This document shows, piece after piece, positions 1,987-11,329 of a stretch of DNA of 35,983 bases. Below the pieces are notes generated by a model, which was not told the DNA's origin, did no database searches, and was given only the letters and a program-made list of their open reading frames with translations. The stretch is from a virus. The stretch's first letter is position 1. Each line of letters starts with the position of its first letter. The stretch lies in the IMG/VR virus record IMGVR_UViG_3300034120_000023, positions 1-35,983 of that record; one strand, given 5' to 3'. The position numbers and the translations under genes were made by a program.

Positions 1987-2661
1987 TTAAGCCAGATAGT
2001 GATTGTTCTTACGCATATTCTCAATTGCGGGAATAATTTGCAAGTTATTCGGTACATGAAGTCCGCAAACATTTTCGCCCTGCAATGGGATTATATGGTC
2101 AACATGCCAGTTTTGACCACTTTCTTTCGACCTCATCGAAGCAACTTGATAGTAGCACTTCATCTTCAAATGGTCAAATTCTGTTAACCAGCTTGGAGTT
2201 CGTTGTAATTTAGCAGATCGTCTTTTAGCGGATGAAGCTAATACTGCACCAATGTTGTTTTTTACCCATAAACGCTTTACTTCTCTGCGTTTACCAATAG
2301 TTTCAGCTTTGCGAGATGTTATCTTCTCTCTGTTTAGCTTTTCGTATAGCTTTTGATACTCTCTGATTTTGTCTTTATTTCTTAAAGCGTATTCTTTTTG
2401 ACTTGTTTTCCTGCCTTTAGGATTTTCATTCCTTTTGGCAATGTACTCTTCCATCGTCATAAAACCCTGCCGATCACGCAATCTGGCATATTCTTTTTTT
2501 CTTGACTCTGGATTTGCTAATCTATTAGCTTTTTTTTGCTCGTAATGACAGGATTTGCAAAAATTCAAATGACCATCAGACATATTTTTATGTTTATGGA
2601 AAAATGATAACTGCTTAGTTTGAGCACATCTTTTGCAAGTTTTAGTCAAATTAAGCGTCAT
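1987..2661 (-). CDS. HNH endonuclease with N-terminal zinc finger, inserted between terL and portal
   Basis: This is a 224-residue free-standing HNH nuclease, probably a homing endonuclease. The N-terminus has a C-x2-C pair (C9, C12) and a second C-x2-C pair (C35, C38), a likely zinc finger. The middle is a highly basic Lys/Arg-rich helical region. The C-terminus holds the HNH core: WHVDHIIPL, then LHVPNNLQIIP and a final ENMRKNNH. Identical 17-bp sequences flank the gene (1965-1981 and 2684-2700), and the downstream copy matches the end of terL, so the gene appears to be a mobile insertion. A role in virion assembly is not needed to explain it, although HNH genes beside terminases can assist packaging in some phages. 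Confidence 0.85.
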   Translation of the reverse strand: MTLNLTKTCKRCAQTKQLSFFHKHKNMSDGHLNFCKSCHYEQKKANRLANPESRKKEYARLRDRQGFMTMEEYIAKRNENPKGRKTSQKEYALRNKDKIREYQKLYEKLNREKITSRKAETIGKRREVKRLWVKNNIGAVLASSAKRRSAKLQRTPSWLTEFDHLKMKCYYQVASMRSKESGQNWHVDHIIPLQGENVCGLHVPNNLQIIPAIENMRKNNHYLA

Positions 2662-5272: not shown

Positions 5273-5294
5273 ATTCAATAGGTGTCAATAATGA
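5273..5294 (+). repeat. 22-bp duplicated translation-initiation leader (copy 2)
   Basis: Identical to 4945-4966; it serves as the ribosome-binding leader of the GP88-like gene. Confidence 0.8.
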
Positions 5295-5938
5295 TCAAAA
5301 TCTCAAATACTTCAAAATTAAATGCCCGTTCGTGGAGTTTGCAAGCTTTGGACACCTGTCCTGGTTCGTGGGCAGCACCTGGTGAGCTTGTCGATGCTTG
5401 CAAGGGATGCTATGCCACTACTGGAAATTACAATTATCCTAATGTGAAAGCCCCAAGATTGTCTAATCGTGAAGACTGGCAGCGCTTAGACTGGGTGTCT
5501 GACATGGTTTCAGAGCTTGATCAAGATCGTTATTTCCGCTGGTTTGATTCTGGTGATGTTTATACCCTTGGATTAGCGGAAAAAATCCTTGAAGTAATGA
5601 TTCGGACACCTTGGTGTAATCATTGGCTGCCCACCAGAATGCATAAATTCCCTAAATTTGCCCATGTTTTTGCTCAAATGGAAGCTTTGCCTAATGTGAA
5701 GGTTCGTTTTTCAAGTGATTCTATCCAAGGTGAATACATTGAGGGCTTGCATGGTTCGGTTATTGGCCCAGACGCTGCCACTTTTCAAGCCCGTGAAGGT
5801 GTTCAATTATGCGAAGCTTATAAGCACGGGGGAAACTGTAATGGCTGCAGGGCTTGTTGGTCTAAAGATGTCCCATTGATTGCCTATCCAGCGCATGGCC
5901 AAAAAATGGCACGGGTTATTAAGTTAAAACAAATTTAA
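5291..5938 (+). CDS. GP88-family phage protein (Cys-rich, radical-SAM-like layout)
   Basis: A 215-residue protein resembling the 'gene product 88' family first seen in mycobacteriophages. Features that match my memory of the family are an N-terminal ACKGCYA motif (around 36-42), a central FRWFDSGD strand-loop followed by a helix (LAEKILEVMI), a strand-rich core (LPNVKVRFSSDS), and a C-terminal cluster C-x8-C-x2-C-x2-C ending in CW. The Cys pattern suggests metal or Fe-S binding and the fold order is reminiscent of radical-SAM-type barrels. The reaction is unknown. ATG 5291 is favoured over GTG 5282 by ribosome-site spacing. Confidence 0.65.
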   Translation: MIKISNTSKLNARSWSLQALDTCPGSWAAPGELVDACKGCYATTGNYNYPNVKAPRLSNREDWQRLDWVSDMVSELDQDRYFRWFDSGDVYTLGLAEKILEVMIRTPWCNHWLPTRMHKFPKFAHVFAQMEALPNVKVRFSSDSIQGEYIEGLHGSVIGPDAATFQAREGVQLCEAYKHGGNCNGCRACWSKDVPLIAYPAHGQKMARVIKLKQI

Positions 5939-6104: not shown

Positions 6105-6407
6105 TTAAAACGGGTTTTTATCGGCTTCTAGCGGTATTTGCTCGCACAATTTCCGTATCGTTTCATTGAGTGCTGCCAATTCATCCATTTTGTAGACAGA
6201 CCAAAGCCTTTTCTGCCCATGTATCCCGTTAATGCTTCCACGATGGCAATCAGCACATAATGGCATTGATGTAAACCATTGTCCCTGGTGAATTTCATGG
6301 CATTCACTTGGTGGTGGTGAGTCGCAAATAATGCAAGACATCCCCTTGATTCGCTCAATGTGTTGTTTTTCCCCATTGGTGGGCTTTGCTTTATTTTTGC
6401 TTTGCAT
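6105..6407 (-). CDS. Ref-like HNH nuclease
   Basis: A 100-residue protein matching the P1 Ref (recombination enhancement function) type of HNH nuclease in layout. CIICDSPP carries a C-x2-C pair, followed by CHEIHQGQW, PLCADCHRG and IHGQKRLW. The His residues of CHEIH and ADCHRG form the nuclease core and the Cys pairs would bind zinc. In P1, Ref cuts at RecA-made D-loops and promotes RecA-dependent recombination. The gene is last in the minus-strand early operon, starting just after the stop of the gene before it. Confidence 0.75.
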   Translation of the reverse strand: MQSKNKAKPTNGEKQHIERIKGMSCIICDSPPPSECHEIHQGQWFTSMPLCADCHRGSINGIHGQKRLWSVYKMDELAALNETIRKLCEQIPLEADKNPF

Positions 6408-6408
6408 C

Positions 6409-6735
6409 CTATTGAGTCGCTCTCACTTCCATGCGGGCGCTATATTGTTCGGTTCTCCAAACCTCTATCCTTGCTTGAGCTGCAGTCATCAACCACCGAT
6501 ATTTCTCCTCTTTCTCGACCGCTTCCTTGATACCATTGAGTATTTCTATGTAATCTTGGTGAGCATAAGCATAGGTTTCTTGTTTTCCAAGTACTTCTGT
6601 GCCAGCTTGTGCCATGAGTTGGGCTTTTCTGCTCTTGCGAAACTCCTCAAGATACATACGATCTGCTTTTGCTTTGGCGTACAGAGGACTCGTATCTATC
6701 AGAAACTGTATCGCCTTGTGTGGGCTATCACTCAT
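6409..6735 (-). CDS. Conserved phage protein of unknown function
   Basis: A 108-residue, mostly helical protein (MSDSPHKAIQFLIDTSPLYA start; ADRMYLEEFRKSRKAQLM; IKEAVEKEEKYRWLM). From memory it resembles a family widespread in phages and prophages of Betaproteobacteria, always uncharacterised. It starts within the stop of the transporter gene (ATGA overlap at 6732-6735), so it is translationally coupled to the DNA-modification pair. Confidence 0.7.
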   Translation of the reverse strand: MSDSPHKAIQFLIDTSPLYAKAKADRMYLEEFRKSRKAQLMAQAGTEVLGKQETYAYAHQDYIEILNGIKEAVEKEEKYRWLMTAAQARIEVWRTEQYSARMEVRATQ

Positions 6736-7217
6736 ACTGTTTTCTCAGGTTGTTGTATTTTTGCCAATCCAAACGCCCAGATAGCTCCACCAGACACCTT
6801 GGCTAAGAATTGCAAAGCAATAATTTCGGGCATCAACACGCCAAAAGCAATGGTCGGGAACAAAACAGAATCTACTGCAGCGCCAGCGGTATTTGAAACA
6901 TTTGTCCTTTTTAGCCATGTGCCAGTAGTTTTTACAAATACGGCCCAATCTACCATTGCAGCCACCAAAAATGATGTTGCTGAAGCTATTGCAATCATTC
7001 CTGAAGCAGGGTTAAGAGCATAGGTAATTAAGCCAGTTCCAACAATCAAACTACCCATTTGCCATGTTTTTAGTCTGACATGAAGCCAATCTCTAAGTGT
7101 TAAATCAAGTCCTATTAAGAAGAAAGCGTTTATTGGACTTATTGAAGGGCCAAAAGTAGCTACCAAAAGATTGGCTGAAACCATTGCTAAAGCATAAGCA
7201 ATTAAGGCAAAAATCAT
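6732..7217 (-). CDS. VUT/YhhQ-like queuosine-precursor transporter
   Basis: An integral membrane protein of the VUT family, whose member YhhQ imports the 7-deazaguanine precursors preQ0/preQ1. From ATG 7217 it has 161 residues: MIFALIAYALAMVSANLLVA (TM1), SPINAFFLIGLDLTLRDWLH with the family's GLDL-x2-RDWLH motif, several more hydrophobic helices, and NTAGAAVDSVLFPTIAFG near the end. A frame extends upstream to ATG 7256, but ATG 7217 has AGGA at good spacing, overlaps the DpdA-like stop as ATGA, and matches the family's usual N-terminus. Coupling to a DpdA-like gene indicates supply of a base for DNA modification. Confidence 0.85.
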   Translation of the reverse strand: MIFALIAYALAMVSANLLVATFGPSISPINAFFLIGLDLTLRDWLHVRLKTWQMGSLIVGTGLITYALNPASGMIAIASATSFLVAAMVDWAVFVKTTGTWLKRTNVSNTAGAAVDSVLFPTIAFGVLMPEIIALQFLAKVSGGAIWAFGLAKIQQPEKTV

Positions 7218-7954
7218 AAAAGAGTTTCCTGTTCCATAGGTTGATAAAAATTCCATTGTGAAGGGGCGTTAAATGCCTCTATTCGTGATCGCATGATCTG
7301 TGCTCTAGCCTCTTTTGTAGGCGGTAGATAGTTTCCATGCTTCCAATGCACATCAATTCCAACATTTCTGCCGATATTTGTGCTGTCTGCTGATGAAAAT
7401 GGCAATTTTGTAAATATTGCAGGGTCTAACATCCTCAATCCATGAAGTTTGCAAGCTGGTCTTCCCATGTCATCGCAAATTACCCTCATGGCTTGGCTCA
7501 TTTTTACCCACCAGTTTTGAGTTCCTACTGTTGAAAACTCTCCAGAACTTCCAATACAAACTCGAACATAGGTGTTTGCTAGTTGTTCTAAGCGTTCTAG
7601 TGATTCGTGCATATGCCAAACTGGAGCGCCAAACCAATTTGGTAATGGGCAGTCTTTCAACAAAGCGTCATTATCTGCCTCATTCCCATCAATAACATCA
7701 GGAATCACAGCAAAGTCGCATGATGGAACTTTCTTTAGATTAAGCGACCAATCGTAAAAAGGTTGCCAATCGGTTATTGGTTTTCCTGATCGCCAGGCTG
7801 AAAAAGCTCCGTTATCAATTGCAAAAGACTGACAAACTTCAATCGCTGCTGATAATTGGTCAGAATGTGCAAATGACACAAAAGCATGACCATTCTCGAT
7901 AGCCTTAACAGCTACTGTTGCAGGAGTTATTGGTAATCCGTGATAGTGAATCAT
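7214..7954 (-). CDS. dpdA: DpdA-like TGT-family DNA transglycosylase (7-deazaguanine insertion)
   Basis: A 246-residue protein of the tRNA-guanine transglycosylase superfamily, resembling phage DpdA enzymes that exchange guanine in DNA for a 7-deazaguanine. Visible motifs: IDNGAF (46-51), matching the TGT DSGGF loop with its general-base Asp; DFAVIPDVIDG (80-90); WHMHES (113-118); IGSSGEF (134-140), at the GGLAVGE position; HGLRM (171-175); and SSADSTNIGRN (187-197), whose Asp 190 is the candidate nucleophile. The C-terminal zinc cluster of tRNA-acting TGTs is absent, as in DNA-acting members. No queC/D/E/F-like genes are present, so the base would be salvaged via the overlapping transporter. 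Confidence 0.8.
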   Translation of the reverse strand: MIHYHGLPITPATVAVKAIENGHAFVSFAHSDQLSAAIEVCQSFAIDNGAFSAWRSGKPITDWQPFYDWSLNLKKVPSCDFAVIPDVIDGNEADNDALLKDCPLPNWFGAPVWHMHESLERLEQLANTYVRVCIGSSGEFSTVGTQNWWVKMSQAMRVICDDMGRPACKLHGLRMLDPAIFTKLPFSSADSTNIGRNVGIDVHWKHGNYLPPTKEARAQIMRSRIEAFNAPSQWNFYQPMEQETLL

Positions 7955-8412
7955 GTTATTTCCACCACTTTGTCACCATGTGATTTAATGTAATTCTTGG
8001 TCTTTTGGATATATCTCTCAAATTCTGACCTTGAAATACTCGATTGTTGAAGGTCTGCATACTCGATTAAGTCCCTTACAGCTTGTATTCCCTCACCACT
8101 TAATCCGAGCTTTTTAGTCTTTTCAAACCTAATTGCCGCTTCATGTAGTGCTTTTTGAGCTTTCTCGCATACTGGCAGTACCTCTGGCCCGATTCCACTT
8201 CTAGCCATCATTTCCGACAGATTCAATACATCGACTAGGGTTCTCCAATCTTGGATTGTTCCTTGACCTTTGGTTATTGACTCTAGGGCTGAGTATTCAA
8301 GGGTTCTGAGCTTGTCCAGCTTGTCCCTCTGGGTTATCGCTGCTCCCACTATCGCATGGGTCAATGGATCGATCAAATTCCAATGCTTTCTCTTTGTTTT
8401 TTTGCGAGTCAT
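7951..8412 (-). CDS. Conserved phage protein of unknown function
   Basis: From ATG 8412 this is a 153-residue basic, helical protein (MTRKKTKRKHWNLIDPLTHA). LRTLEYSALESITKGQGTIQDWRTLVDVLN resembles, from memory, an uncharacterised family common in betaproteobacterial phages. Its stop overlaps the DpdA-like start (ATGA at 7951-7954). The first 116 bases overlap the preceding gene in another frame. No catalytic motif is visible. Confidence 0.7.
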   Translation of the reverse strand: MTRKKTKRKHWNLIDPLTHAIVGAAITQRDKLDKLRTLEYSALESITKGQGTIQDWRTLVDVLNLSEMMARSGIGPEVLPVCEKAQKALHEAAIRFEKTKKLGLSGEGIQAVRDLIEYADLQQSSISRSEFERYIQKTKNYIKSHGDKVVEIT

Positions 8413-8497
8413 TATCTTTTCCAAAGATGGCATCCCATCTATTTGCATATTCTTGATTGCTTACTTGAAACGGACGAGGAATTGAACCTTTACCCAT
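8297..8497 (-). CDS. Small conserved phage protein overlapping its neighbour
   Basis: From ATG 8497, preceded by a strong GGAGG site, this encodes 66 residues beginning MGKGSIPRPFQVSNQEYANR then WDAIFGKD. That N-terminus resembles a small phage protein I have seen in many siphoviruses and podoviruses; function unknown. The C-terminal half is acidic, Ser/Gly/Gln-rich and probably disordered. It shares 116 bases with the next gene out of frame. Confidence 0.65.
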   Translation of the reverse strand: MGKGSIPRPFQVSNQEYANRWDAIFGKDNDSQKNKEKALEFDRSIDPCDSGSSDNPEGQAGQAQNP

Positions 8498-8573
8498 AAA
8501 ACCTCCAAATTGAGTAAATCCATAACCAAAATACTGCAATGCCAGAAAGTATCAGTTTCCACTCAAAACTCAT
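8490..8573 (-). CDS. 27-residue membrane peptide
   Basis: MSFEWKLILSGIAVFWLWIY then SIWRFYG. It is one strong transmembrane helix with a short basic end. The ATG overlaps the stop of the preceding gene (ATGA, 8570-8573) and GAGG is placed just upstream, so it is probably translated by coupling. Its stop lies just inside the start of the next gene. Confidence 0.5.
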   Translation of the reverse strand: MSFEWKLILSGIAVFWLWIYSIWRFYG

Positions 8574-8806
8574 ACATCCTCGTATTTGTAGTTGAGCTTG
8601 TGGTGGTGAAAGCGCATGGACGCTTCCATTTCTAACTCTTTGAAGTGTTCAGCAGAGAACAATCCGATGACATTGCGACCTTCAAACCAGACTTCACGAA
8701 TGTTCTCGCTATAGGTTGAATCTTTGTCCTGCTCGTACTCATAGACTACTTTTACGATCTCGCTACCTTCGCCAGTAGTTGTATCAAATTCCCATGTGTT
8801 CATCAT
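8570..8806 (-). CDS. Hypothetical protein
   Basis: A 78-residue acidic protein (MMNTWEFDTTTGEGSEIVKV). It has two adjacent ATGs; AGGAG lies three bases before the first and six before the second, so translation may begin at 8803. VWFEGRNVIGLFSAEHFKELE looks like a small alpha/beta fold. No family recognised. About 60 bases without a gene separate it from RusA. Confidence 0.6.
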   Translation of the reverse strand: MMNTWEFDTTTGEGSEIVKVVYEYEQDKDSTYSENIREVWFEGRNVIGLFSAEHFKELEMEASMRFHHHKLNYKYEDV

Positions 8807-8868
8807 TGACTCCTGTTAAAAACTGTTAATTTACTCTTGTTAAACAATAAATCTATTAGGTAAAACCC

Positions 8869-9297
8869 TTAGTCCAAGCATTCTTTTACACAAATATCAA
8901 CACCCGCAAGACTTGAATAAACCTTCGCAACATGGATATTCACGATCTGAGAATCATCCTTATAAACCACTCCATTCATGGCATCTTCTACACTTTTCAG
9001 CACATTAGATGCGTCAGGCTTCTTAATTGGCTTCTCTGAGCCGTTTAAACAGGCTTCTGAGCGCTTTTTTGAGTACGACTGAGGGATAGGCGCTCTTATA
9101 TACAGATAAAGGTTTACAGGGGTTTCTAGGATTTCATTGCTACCCATCGCTTGTATGGCTGCTTCTTTGATTAAAGACTCATAGTTGCGGGTTTTGTCAG
9201 GGGTGTAAGTTTGAACAAAGTTTCCTCGCTTTGCATACCTAGCTCTCTGTTTGCCAACAGGGTTAGCGTCTACTTTGAATGTGACCATGAAACTCAT
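8869..9297 (-). CDS. rusA: RusA-family Holliday junction resolvase
   Basis: A 142-residue enzyme that cleaves four-way DNA junctions during recombination and replication. VDANPVGKQRARYAKRG at the N-terminus and the acidic core KPDASNVLKSVEDAMNGVVY followed by KDDSQIV are RusA hallmarks. The canonical PD-x-DN motif reads PDASN here, so the second acidic residue is Ser while the later aspartates (VEDAMN, KDDSQ) are kept. Length is close to the usual 120-140. The start overlaps the stop of the Mom-like gene (ATGA). Confidence 0.9.
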   Translation of the reverse strand: MSFMVTFKVDANPVGKQRARYAKRGNFVQTYTPDKTRNYESLIKEAAIQAMGSNEILETPVNLYLYIRAPIPQSYSKKRSEACLNGSEKPIKKPDASNVLKSVEDAMNGVVYKDDSQIVNIHVAKVYSSLAGVDICVKECLD

Positions 9298-10112
9298 GTC
9301 AATTCCTTTAATGTTCTTTTAGGATATGGTTTTATCAAATGCTGAATTGCATTTAAATGTTTTTTTTGTGTGTACTTGTTACCAATGAAAGCAAAATATC
9401 TTCCTTTGCTGTGTTGTTTTACCTTTTCAACAGTAGGAAAGTGCTTCTTAATATTTTCAATTTGAGTGTTTCCGCAAACAGCTCTAATGCTTCTGGATGT
9501 CCAAATCTTGCCATTTATCAACCATCCATCACGATCTAATTTTCTGCTTTTTACATTAGGGTTTCCATCCCGCATTGAGCCGACATAAGTAAAGCCGCAA
9601 GCCTGATAAATAGTCCCAATTTCTCCAGCAGCTTCATCAACAGTAGATGTAACAACCTCGTATTTTTTTGGCAACATCTTCATACTTTGTCTAATCAACT
9701 TGCTTGCGCTATGAGGATGTGCCCAATGAACACAAGCGCCACGACTTAATAAAATCATCTTTCCCTCATATCCATATTTGCTCCAATCAGCGCCAGCCAG
9801 TCCTTTTTCTCTGGTTATCTTTCCAAGGTTCTCTGAGTATTCAGGCCCATAACATACAACTCCACCACAAAATCCTTCAAAGAAAATGCCATAGCAATGC
9901 CAAACAACTGCAGGCATACAGCCAAGCCATTCATAATCTTTGATAATTTTTTCAGCCATCTGATAGCTGACTTCACGCACTTCTGCTTTTTTGATGTCAG
10001 TATCAATTTTTGACCACCAATCTCCAAGCAAATCAGAATCTAAATTTTCCGATCTGCGTTTTTCTCTTATTTGTTTTTGCCAAGCAATAGATGTTTCAAG
10101 TAATAAATTCAT
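9294..10112 (-). CDS. Mom-like DNA adenine modification protein (GNAT fold)
   Basis: A 272-residue protein resembling the phage Mu Mom family, which converts adenine in DNA to N6-carbamoylmethyladenine and blocks many restriction enzymes. IIKDYEWLGCMP (56-67) precedes YGIFFEGFCGGVVCYGPEY, a GNAT-type beta hairpin. SRGACVHWAHPHSASKLIRQ (123-142) sits at the cofactor-binding motif A position, and EIGTIYQACGFTYVG (164-178) is the usual GNAT motif B. The C-terminus has RYFAFIGNK and IKPYPKR. Phages commonly carry this type of protein, but few have been tested. An alternative is a GNAT acting on another base or on protein. Confidence 0.75.
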   Translation of the reverse strand: MNLLLETSIAWQKQIREKRRSENLDSDLLGDWWSKIDTDIKKAEVREVSYQMAEKIIKDYEWLGCMPAVVWHCYGIFFEGFCGGVVCYGPEYSENLGKITREKGLAGADWSKYGYEGKMILLSRGACVHWAHPHSASKLIRQSMKMLPKKYEVVTSTVDEAAGEIGTIYQACGFTYVGSMRDGNPNVKSRKLDRDGWLINGKIWTSRSIRAVCGNTQIENIKKHFPTVEKVKQHSKGRYFAFIGNKYTQKKHLNAIQHLIKPYPKRTLKELT

Positions 10113-10120
10113 GTTAAAGC

Positions 10121-10333
10121 CTATTCAATAGTTCCATTTTTCATAAGAGTCATGTAATTTCTTACTCTGTCTCTAGCTCCAATGCCATAAATGCGTTCAC
10201 ATCTTTCTAATCTGGCACGAACAAAGTCGTTATCTTGGTTTGTCTGCCAAGTTCGGAACATTTCCCGAGCTTCTGCTTTCTCAAGAACAACTCTGTCGCT
10301 CTCATTGGATATTGTTTTTCGGCTGTATGCCAT
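10121..10333 (-). CDS. Small hypothetical protein
   Basis: A 70-residue charged, helical protein (MAYSRKTISNESDRVVLEKA; RARLERCERIYGIGARDRVRN). No family recognised. It sits between the DUF1376 replication gene cluster and the Mom-like gene in the same direction. Confidence 0.55.
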   Translation of the reverse strand: MAYSRKTISNESDRVVLEKAEAREMFRTWQTNQDNDFVRARLERCERIYGIGARDRVRNYMTLMKNGTIE

Positions 10334-10339
10334 AGGTGT

Positions 10340-10447
10340 TTACTCTAGGTCGCCAGTAAGCTCTAAGGCTTTGTTTATCAGATGAAGAGGGTAAGGTACG
10401 CCTTCACGAACCTTGTCTAGCAGTCTCATGGCATCGTAGTAATTCAC
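10340..10447 (-). CDS. 35-residue protein with GTG start
   Basis: MNYYDAMRLLDKVREGVPYP then LHLINKALELTGDLE. The GTG at 10447 overlaps the stop of the replication gene (GTGA, 10444-10447) and is preceded by GGAGAAAAGC. The amphipathic helical sequence and coupled start support a real gene. Function unknown. Confidence 0.6.
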   Translation of the reverse strand: MNYYDAMRLLDKVREGVPYPLHLINKALELTGDLE

Positions 10448-11202
10448 GCTTTTCTCCTTAGTTCAGCCATCTTTGCCAACACCTCAAGCGGAATGGGCGC
10501 AGCTTTTTTATCGTCTTCTTTAATCTTCAATAAAGCCGCATCAGGCTCATTTGATGCAGGAACTGTGACCCTGCCAATGTCAGCAGGATTGGCTTTAACT
10601 GCTTTTGTGTTTCTCACCCAATTACGCCAAGTAGCATCCCAATCCAACTTCACACCTTTTTGACCAGGTTGAGCAATCCAATAATCTTTGAACTGTTCAG
10701 CAACTTGACGAACATCTAAATCAGGTCTTTCCTGAGTAGCCCAATCACCTAAAGATTTAGTAAGAAACCAGTCTTGAGATAGTCGAGAGCCTTTCTTGTT
10801 CTCTTTAATGGGTTTTGTGTCTTGTGTAATGGGTAATGTGTTATGTGTAGCATTGCTTTCGGATTGCGTTGGCAATGCGTTCGCATCTTTCTTACTCCAT
10901 CTAGCTTTAGCAGAGGCACTAGCCTTCTCAGATTTGTCATCTGCCTTAGCTATTTCCTTGTTAGCCCTATGATGAATCCATCCATCATCTGTGCGTTCAA
11001 AATACTCTTGCAATACGATCGCAATGCTTTCGGTATGCGAACGCATCCTAATCTGTCTTGAAACTTCAGCTTCATTAAGAGGTATTGGACATTCGTGAAG
11101 ATAGTACCAATCAAGCAAACGCCTGTAGACTAAATCTTCAATGTCAGAAAGATGCGAGGTGTGACTTTGGTAGTCACCAATGTTGAACTGGTAATAGTGC
11201 AT
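10444..11202 (-). CDS. DUF1376-domain (YdaU-like) replication protein
   Basis: From ATG 11202 this encodes 252 residues. The N-terminal MHYYQFNIGDYQSHTSHLSD followed by LVYRRLLDWYYLHE and IPLNEAEVSRQIRM is a typical DUF1376 domain, a winged-helix-like fold in phage replication-initiation proteins. A charged linker (residues ~85-140) leads to a C-terminal helical region containing DWDATWRNWVRN, typical of phage primosomal/O-like proteins. A GTG at 11223 would add seven residues, but the family usually begins at MHYY. Iteron-like repeats lie inside its coding sequence, as the lambda origin does in gene O. Confidence 0.8.
   Translation of the reverse strand: MHYYQFNIGDYQSHTSHLSDIEDLVYRRLLDWYYLHECPIPLNEAEVSRQIRMRSHTESIAIVLQEYFERTDDGWIHHRANKEIAKADDKSEKASASAKARWSKKDANALPTQSESNATHNTLPITQDTKPIKENKKGSRLSQDWFLTKSLGDWATQERPDLDVRQVAEQFKDYWIAQPGQKGVKLDWDATWRNWVRNTKAVKANPADIGRVTVPASNEPDAALLKIKEDDKKAAPIPLEVLAKMAELRRKA
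10850..11046. repeat. Iteron-like repeats inside the replication gene
   Basis: GCATTGCTTTCGG (10850-10862) and GCAATGCTTTCGG (11021-11033) are near-identical direct repeats. Each is followed by an ATGCG-TT/AA-CGCAT palindrome (10875-10886 and 11035-11046). An AT/GT-rich stretch (10808-10848) adjoins the first pair. Binding sites for the replication protein, forming an origin inside its gene, are a reasonable inference. Confidence 0.35.
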
Positions 11203-11329
11203 ATTGTCCGCTTTTTTAACCACCCTTTGAAGGAATTGCCAGCAGGAGAAGGGTTAACTCTTTTCGGTGCGCTCATGACTTCGCACCTAGCTGGATTCCA
11301 TAATAACAAAACTATTCTACTTTGTAAAC

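Follow-up and report, generated by a model that had tools for sequence, protein, structure and literature searches.

The virus record IMGVR_UViG_3300034120_000023 (IMG/VR) carries, within one minus-strand replication operon, genes of two DNA-modification families, mom and dpdA, and the latter is coupled to a gene for a YhhQ-type transporter. The window in this work is the whole virus record, which has a length of 35,983 bp. We read the region, with a probability of roughly 55%, as an accessory anti-restriction part of the replication operon that carries two independent DNA-modification modules, Mom and DpdA-YhhQ. Both modules most likely mark phage DNA, where the guanine step of DpdA is the less secure of the two. 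Modification of both purines is plausible but unproven. An earlier reading of the same DNA from its letters (the sequence-only reading) had placed the two modification families in one operon, which is retained here, but it had overlooked the exchange of modification genes at this locus.

The minus-strand run consists of genes for the DUF1376 protein, a 70-aa open reading frame (ORF), Mom, RusA, a 78-aa ORF, a 165-aa ORF, DpdA, YhhQ, a 108-aa ORF, and a Cys/His-rich 100-aa ORF, in that order. The ORFs that the sequence-only reading had assigned to one run are all present there and tightly packed, with overlaps of 4 to 43 bp. Overlaps of 4 bp are found between Mom and RusA (9294-9297), between the 165-aa ORF and DpdA (7951-7954), and between YhhQ and the 108-aa ORF (6732-6735), while DpdA and YhhQ overlap by 43 bp (7214-7256). 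No terminator-like site was identified on the minus strand from Mom to the final gene of the run. The RusA assignment of that reading also stands (Table 1).

The Mom-like protein matches Pfam PF25680 with 70.7 bits (E=1.8e-19), which is above the curated cut-off of 27.1, and phrog_1384 (E=1.3e-19). The AlphaFold2 model of this protein, made with a 27-sequence alignment, has a predicted local distance difference test (pLDDT) score of 81. The closest fold to this model in the Protein Data Bank (PDB) is 8bv8, the S124A form of Mu Mom (E=3.8e-11), ahead of every other acetyltransferase. The entry of 8bv8 describes S124A as an 'inactive mutant' of Mu Mom. S137 of the window Mom aligns with Mu S124 and is invariant across the 27-sequence alignment. 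D159 (Mu D149), G163, G166, Y169-Q170-A171, R238-Y239, and the PYPK end are also common to both proteins, and the D-x3-G-x2-G-x-I/V-YQA, RY, and PYPK motifs are retained. An unrelated acetyltransferase, the outcome that the sequence-only reading had named as fatal to its Mom assignment, is ruled out by the closest solved fold being that of Mu Mom and by the shared catalytic-site residues. From its sequence and model, the 272-aa protein belongs to a divergent subclade but is clearly Mom. Compared with the canonical Mom of contig L049, the window Mom is extended at its N-terminus and has additional residues at about 97-113. A second GNAT-like protein of 125 aa is encoded immediately after the canonical Mom in that contig (L049:2694-3071).

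The identification of the DpdA-like enzyme by the sequence-only reading is borne out by a match to phrog_887 (E=7e-69), and the DpdA of phage 9g belongs to the same family (E=7e-98). The 9g DpdA is the phage example on which the DpdA family was built (PMC6884629). The window DpdA and the 9g DpdA share D47-NGAF, H114, H171, and S188-A-D190-S191 at an overall identity of 19%. D47, H114, H171, and D190 are invariant in 12 DpdA sequences including that of 9g, and a catalytic role of these residues is probable. The window DpdA is 63% identical to an Acinetobacter phage protein, 39% (E=1e-52) to the DpdA of Pantoea phage MED16, and 32% to the DpdA of Salmonella phage 7-11. It is of the short kind, as in phages without preQ0-synthesis genes. 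None of folE, queD, queE, and queC was identified among the window proteins scanned, where a few small ORFs were unscanned and the record may be incomplete. The genome of Janthinobacterium sp. UMAB-56 (L350 and L361) has two different DpdA homologues that are 64% and 43% identical to the window DpdA.

The transporter scores 36 bits against PF02592 (Vut_1), above the cut-off of 27.2, and the preQ0 carrier YhhQ belongs to the same family. The protein is called YhhQ-type, and not an equivalog, because its score against TIGR00697 (17 bits) is below the equivalog cut-off of 50.95. YhhQ accompanies dpdA in 82 of the 92 DpdA loci and in 12 of the 12 full loci. Both genes overlap in 59 loci and are separated by a gap of about 200-250 bp in 21. 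The same coupling is present in Acinetobacter phage AB3P2, Pectobacterium phage PEAT2, and an unrelated 55-kb contig. This coupling suggests that the transporter serves DpdA as its usual partner, a role that the sequence-only reading had missed although its transporter assignment agrees with the profile match. The NCBIfam scan names neither Mom nor DpdA, and PADLOC gives no match for Mom, DpdA, or YhhQ.

The window Mom and DpdA recur at 100% protein identity in three more contigs (L002, L003, and L004/L045), the record names of which carry three different dataset numbers. An assembly chimera is therefore unlikely. A search for genomes that carry both genes, as the sequence-only reading had suggested, recovered the pair in ten contigs besides the window, and the Mom proteins of these pairs fall into two distant lineages. 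In L049, L103, L105, L116, L117, and L131, DpdA occurs together with a canonical Mom (about 180-200 bits against phrog_1384). The 55-kb contig encodes a Mom that is 68% identical to that of the window, and the same record also has DpdA and YhhQ. Thirteen sequenced Mom-encoding phage records hold no phrog_887 DpdA. The Mom-DpdA pairing is recurrent though uncommon. The ratio of nonsynonymous to synonymous substitution rates (dN/dS) is 0.01-0.06 for mom and dpdA, with dS of 1-2 between the window and its relatives, and both genes are under strong purifying selection.

Relatives of the window were sampled via two backbone genes (the 108-aa ORF and RusA) without selecting on Mom or DpdA. The ORFs of the 87 loci that span the whole region were clustered and identified. 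Mom is encoded in 39 of these loci, a C5-cytosine methylase (PF00145) in 28, a PAPS-reductase-like protein in 16, DpdA in 12 (all of which also have YhhQ), and an ABC-ATPase-GNAT fusion in 3. Exactly one of these five modification-type genes is present in 65 loci against 37.9 expected (maximum of 53 in 5,000 shuffles), and two or more are present in 16 loci against 27.1 expected (shuffle minimum of 19). The excess of loci with exactly one gene is retained when near-duplicates are collapsed (49 of 68 loci, 29.0 expected) and when the PAPS-like gene is omitted (51 loci, 31.3 expected). The strongest pairwise avoidance is that between Mom and the C5 methylase (p=5e-7). Mom and DpdA taken by themselves show borderline exclusion at most, and the stronger signal is the one across all five genes. 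This pattern of exchange with one gene per locus is suggestive rather than proof, because phylogeny is not taken into account by the shuffle and alleles similar to those of the window are over-represented in the sample. The same region in relatives usually holds one of several modification-type enzymes, so the modules seem to be exchangeable answers to a single need, that of concealing phage DNA from host nucleases. The window is one of the minority of loci that stack two modification genes.

Three other enzymes of this region were also observed in the relatives. The ABC-ATPase-GNAT fusion (L264:6326-7411; phrog_11143, function unknown) lies in the modification region of three relatives and resembles the base-acylation candidate that combines GNAT and an ABC ATPase (PMC7824862). 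The PAPS-reductase-like protein (L299:8831-9697) matches SspD of the phosphorothioation system in PADLOC (E=1e-14) and is a possible phage gene for sulfur-based DNA modification. The C5-cytosine methylase is found at L227:2510-3814.

The gene junctions around DpdA-YhhQ were compared between the window and its relatives. The 165-aa ORF of the Mom-only relative L034 ends in ACATGA, where the ATG is the start of the 108-aa ORF. The same ACATGA starts dpdA in the window, where the start of the 108-aa ORF lies in a second ATGA, at the end of yhhQ. The junction between the 165-aa and 108-aa ORFs is about 0 bp in 35 relatives without DpdA and about 1,220 bp in six DpdA carriers. DpdA is located downstream in all 10 backbone contigs that have both genes, whereas its position is upstream, ahead of the 70-aa, RusA, or 78-aa genes, in 45 of the 69 Mom-less loci that could be placed. 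The difference in position with and without Mom has p=1e-4, or p=1e-3 when the window lineage is counted once. Canonical Mom occupies the upstream position in most loci that allow placement.

The proposed function consists of two parallel activities. Mom would modify adenines of phage DNA at N6 with a carbamoylmethyl-type group, at certain sites, as its family membership and catalytic-site conservation suggest. Through YhhQ, the host cell would take up a 7-deazaguanine precursor, most likely preQ0, which DpdA would then exchange for some guanines in phage DNA. Several points weigh against this function. Sequence does not reveal chemistry, and the reactions given here for Mom and DpdA are predictions. 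The window Mom is divergent, with about 22% identity to Mu Mom in the alignment, and it could differ from Mu Mom in the base and site that it modifies and in the group that it adds. The AlphaFold2 model of DpdA has a pLDDT of 34 and comes from a shallow alignment of sequences that are 86-97% identical. Similarity of DpdA to tRNA-guanine transglycosylase (TGT) was not detected by profile comparison with bacterial TGTs and PDB sequences; a TGT match by HHpred has been reported for the MED16 DpdA (PMC8306585). The direct avoidance between Mom and DpdA is weak (p=0.05-0.06), and the shuffle, in which each gene is permuted independently, makes no correction for shared ancestry. Among the dpdA-only relatives, Mycobacterium phage Orion has no modification and Salmonella phage 7-11 has 0.02% of G modified (PMC6884629). 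MED16 has 0.13% of G modified, and its 2'-deoxy-7-amido-7-deazaguanosine (dADG) did not visibly affect any of the restriction enzymes that were assayed (PMC8306585). The broad resistance that the sequence-only reading had expected if both enzymes work is not supported yet, because these measured relatives gave modification that is absent or at trace level and no protection from restriction in MED16.

The same measurements in 7-11, Orion, and MED16 favour an explanation where only Mom modifies DNA usefully, while DpdA, acting at trace level on preQ0 from the host or chiefly on a different target such as RNA, protects little and DpdA-YhhQ is kept for another benefit. It also gains from the 39% and 32% identity of the window DpdA to the MED16 and 7-11 proteins, and Hutinet et al. 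leave open a functional divergence of singleton DpdAs. However, no YhhQ match was obtained in the dpdA region of 7-11 or in the whole MED16 genome, whereas the window type of DpdA usually has one, and the precursor may have been limiting in those phages. The YhhQ carried here could make a difference for this reason. The strong purifying selection and conserved residues also argue against the explanation, which we regard as possible but rather unlikely.

Chance pairing in a mosaic region, where both genes are separate morons against different defences or hosts without joint selection, is improbable. Either gene is found alone in relatives, such as L034 (36.7 kb) with only Mom and contigs of 34-37 kb with only DpdA, and the pair is present in 2 of the 87 loci, which is not above expectation and gives no sign that the pair is favoured. 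Nevertheless, both genes lie in one tightly overlapping run that recurs in about five lineages, and chance pairing would be compatible with activity of both enzymes; it limits a claim of synergy and not that of two modifications. Slightly less probable still is a divergent Mom that adds a different group, or targets another base or molecule, than Mu Mom. The low identity to Mu Mom, the N-terminal extension, and the insertion described above are consistent with this, but the best PDB fold match is Mu Mom, the serine equivalent to S124 and the core motifs are kept, and syntenic phages hold a canonical Mom in the same region.

The reading as two independent modules in an accessory anti-restriction region can be extended only tentatively. 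A group of small freshwater phages may have one region where at least five chemistries interchange, at least once at an ATGA overlap, and some of these phages may stack two chemistries so that A and G are substantially hypermodified. The five chemistries would be adenine acylation, 7-deazaguanine exchange with a dedicated importer, cytosine methylation, a PAPS/SspD-type enzyme, and a putative ABC-GNAT base acylator. A freshwater origin is suggested by the contig sources to which the nearest deposited phages point (Manatee Spring). No feature of the window names the host; a betaproteobacterium from freshwater is no more than a reasonable guess, because the nearest bacterial carriers of the window DpdA are mostly Burkholderiales, other betaproteobacteria, and Pseudomonas (about 60-72% identity).

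Table 1 Features of the modification region and its borders in the window.
Feature	Coordinates	Strand	Evidence or remark
DUF1376 primosomal/replication-initiation protein, upstream border of modification region	10444..11223	(-)	PF07120 E=2e-23; phrog_3992 E=4e-39
70-aa protein upstream of mom, conserved backbone gene	10121..10333	(-)	in 84/87 full relative loci
Mom-family GNAT-fold protein, predicted DNA adenine modification enzyme, 272 aa, divergent subclade	9294..10112	(-)	PF25680, phrog_1384, fold
RusA-type Holliday junction resolvase, backbone gene of locus	8869..9297	(-)	PF05866 E=7.6e-33
78-aa protein, no family, conserved backbone gene	8570..8806	(-)	in 86/87 full relative loci
165-aa protein	7951..8448	(-)	phrog_20828 E=1e-8 (unknown function); stop overlaps dpdA start (ATGA)
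DpdA-YhhQ cassette, ATGA stop/start overlap at either end	6732..7954	(-)	junction empty in relatives
DpdA, predicted DNA (7-deaza)guanine transglycosylase, short form, 246 aa	7214..7954	(-)	phrog_887
YhhQ/COG1738-type predicted preQ0/7-deazaguanine transporter	6732..7256	(-)	PF02592 E=1.1e-8, above cut-off
108-aa protein, no family match, conserved backbone gene	6409..6735	(-)	in 78/87 full relative loci
100-aa Cys/His-rich protein (C-x2-C ... C-x2-CH ... IHG), possible HNH/zinc nuclease	6105..6407	(-)	phrog_1588 E=3e-13, unknown function

The 100-aa protein at the end of the run had been called a Ref-like nuclease by the sequence-only reading. This call is not confirmed, as the protein has no match to a Ref family or structure, to Pfam, or to the PDB, and its sole match is the unannotated phrog_1588. 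Just downstream of the operon and facing it, the window encodes a cysteine-rich GP88-family protein (5282-5938, plus strand; PF17338 E=2e-28, also DUF7227) that is 94-99% conserved in L064, L069, L077, L139, and L147. An Endonuclease VII-like protein (1987-2661, minus strand; phrog_1035) adjoins the terminase and has a weaker match to the Lar-like restriction-alleviation family phrog_5558 (E=1e-5).

Comparing the window to known systems, the window Mom agrees with Mu Mom in family profile and overall fold and has its catalytic-site serine and core motifs. However, no com-like regulator was recognised next to the window Mom, the gene of which is part of an early replication operon instead of being placed at the right end of a Mu-like genome. 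The Queuovirinae phages CAjan and 9g (dPreQ0/dG+) share the DpdA family with the window, and 32% of G in CAjan is dPreQ0 (PMC6884629). One of the CAjan genes has the annotation of a putative preQ0 transporter. Both phages encode the preQ0 pathway (FolE, QueD, QueE, and QueC), in contrast to the window, where none of these was seen. To our knowledge, neither CAjan nor 9g has a Mom.

The sequence-only reading knew of no characterised phage with both kinds of modifier, which holds only in part. Five Mom-type enzymes and a deazaguanine system have been reported by annotation in the jumbo phage PA5oct (PMC7824862), which resembles the window in having both in one genome but differs in its size of 287 kb from the small window phage. 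Only one weak Mom match (E=1.8e-8) was recovered from PA5oct in this work, and neither phrog_887 nor PF01702 (TGT) detected the transglycosylase reported for this phage. The DNA of MED16 has N6-methyl-2'-deoxyadenosine (m6dA) together with dADG (PMC8306585), and two-purine modification in one phage is thus already measured, at low level. MED16 and 7-11 are similar to the window in having a short phrog_887 DpdA without their own preQ0-synthesis genes, and MED16 also modifies adenine. Unlike the window, the adenine modifier of MED16 is a Dam methylase and not Mom, and no YhhQ match was obtained near the dpdA of 7-11 or in MED16.

Phages with one hypermodified base are known, and the reason for carrying two unrelated systems is an open question, as is whether precursor supply by YhhQ lifts the trace insertion by an 'orphan' DpdA to protective levels. 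The 1.2-kb DpdA-YhhQ cassette makes both questions directly testable. The exchange pattern offers a natural comparison, since close relatives differ in the DNA disguise that they carry. No published description of a Mom-DpdA-YhhQ operon was found in the literature searched, which left out most subscription papers. The tight operon of Mom, DpdA, and YhhQ in a small phage is new compared with PA5oct and MED16, and so is the fact that it recurs and is placed where modification genes are exchanged; the parts are known and the combination is new.

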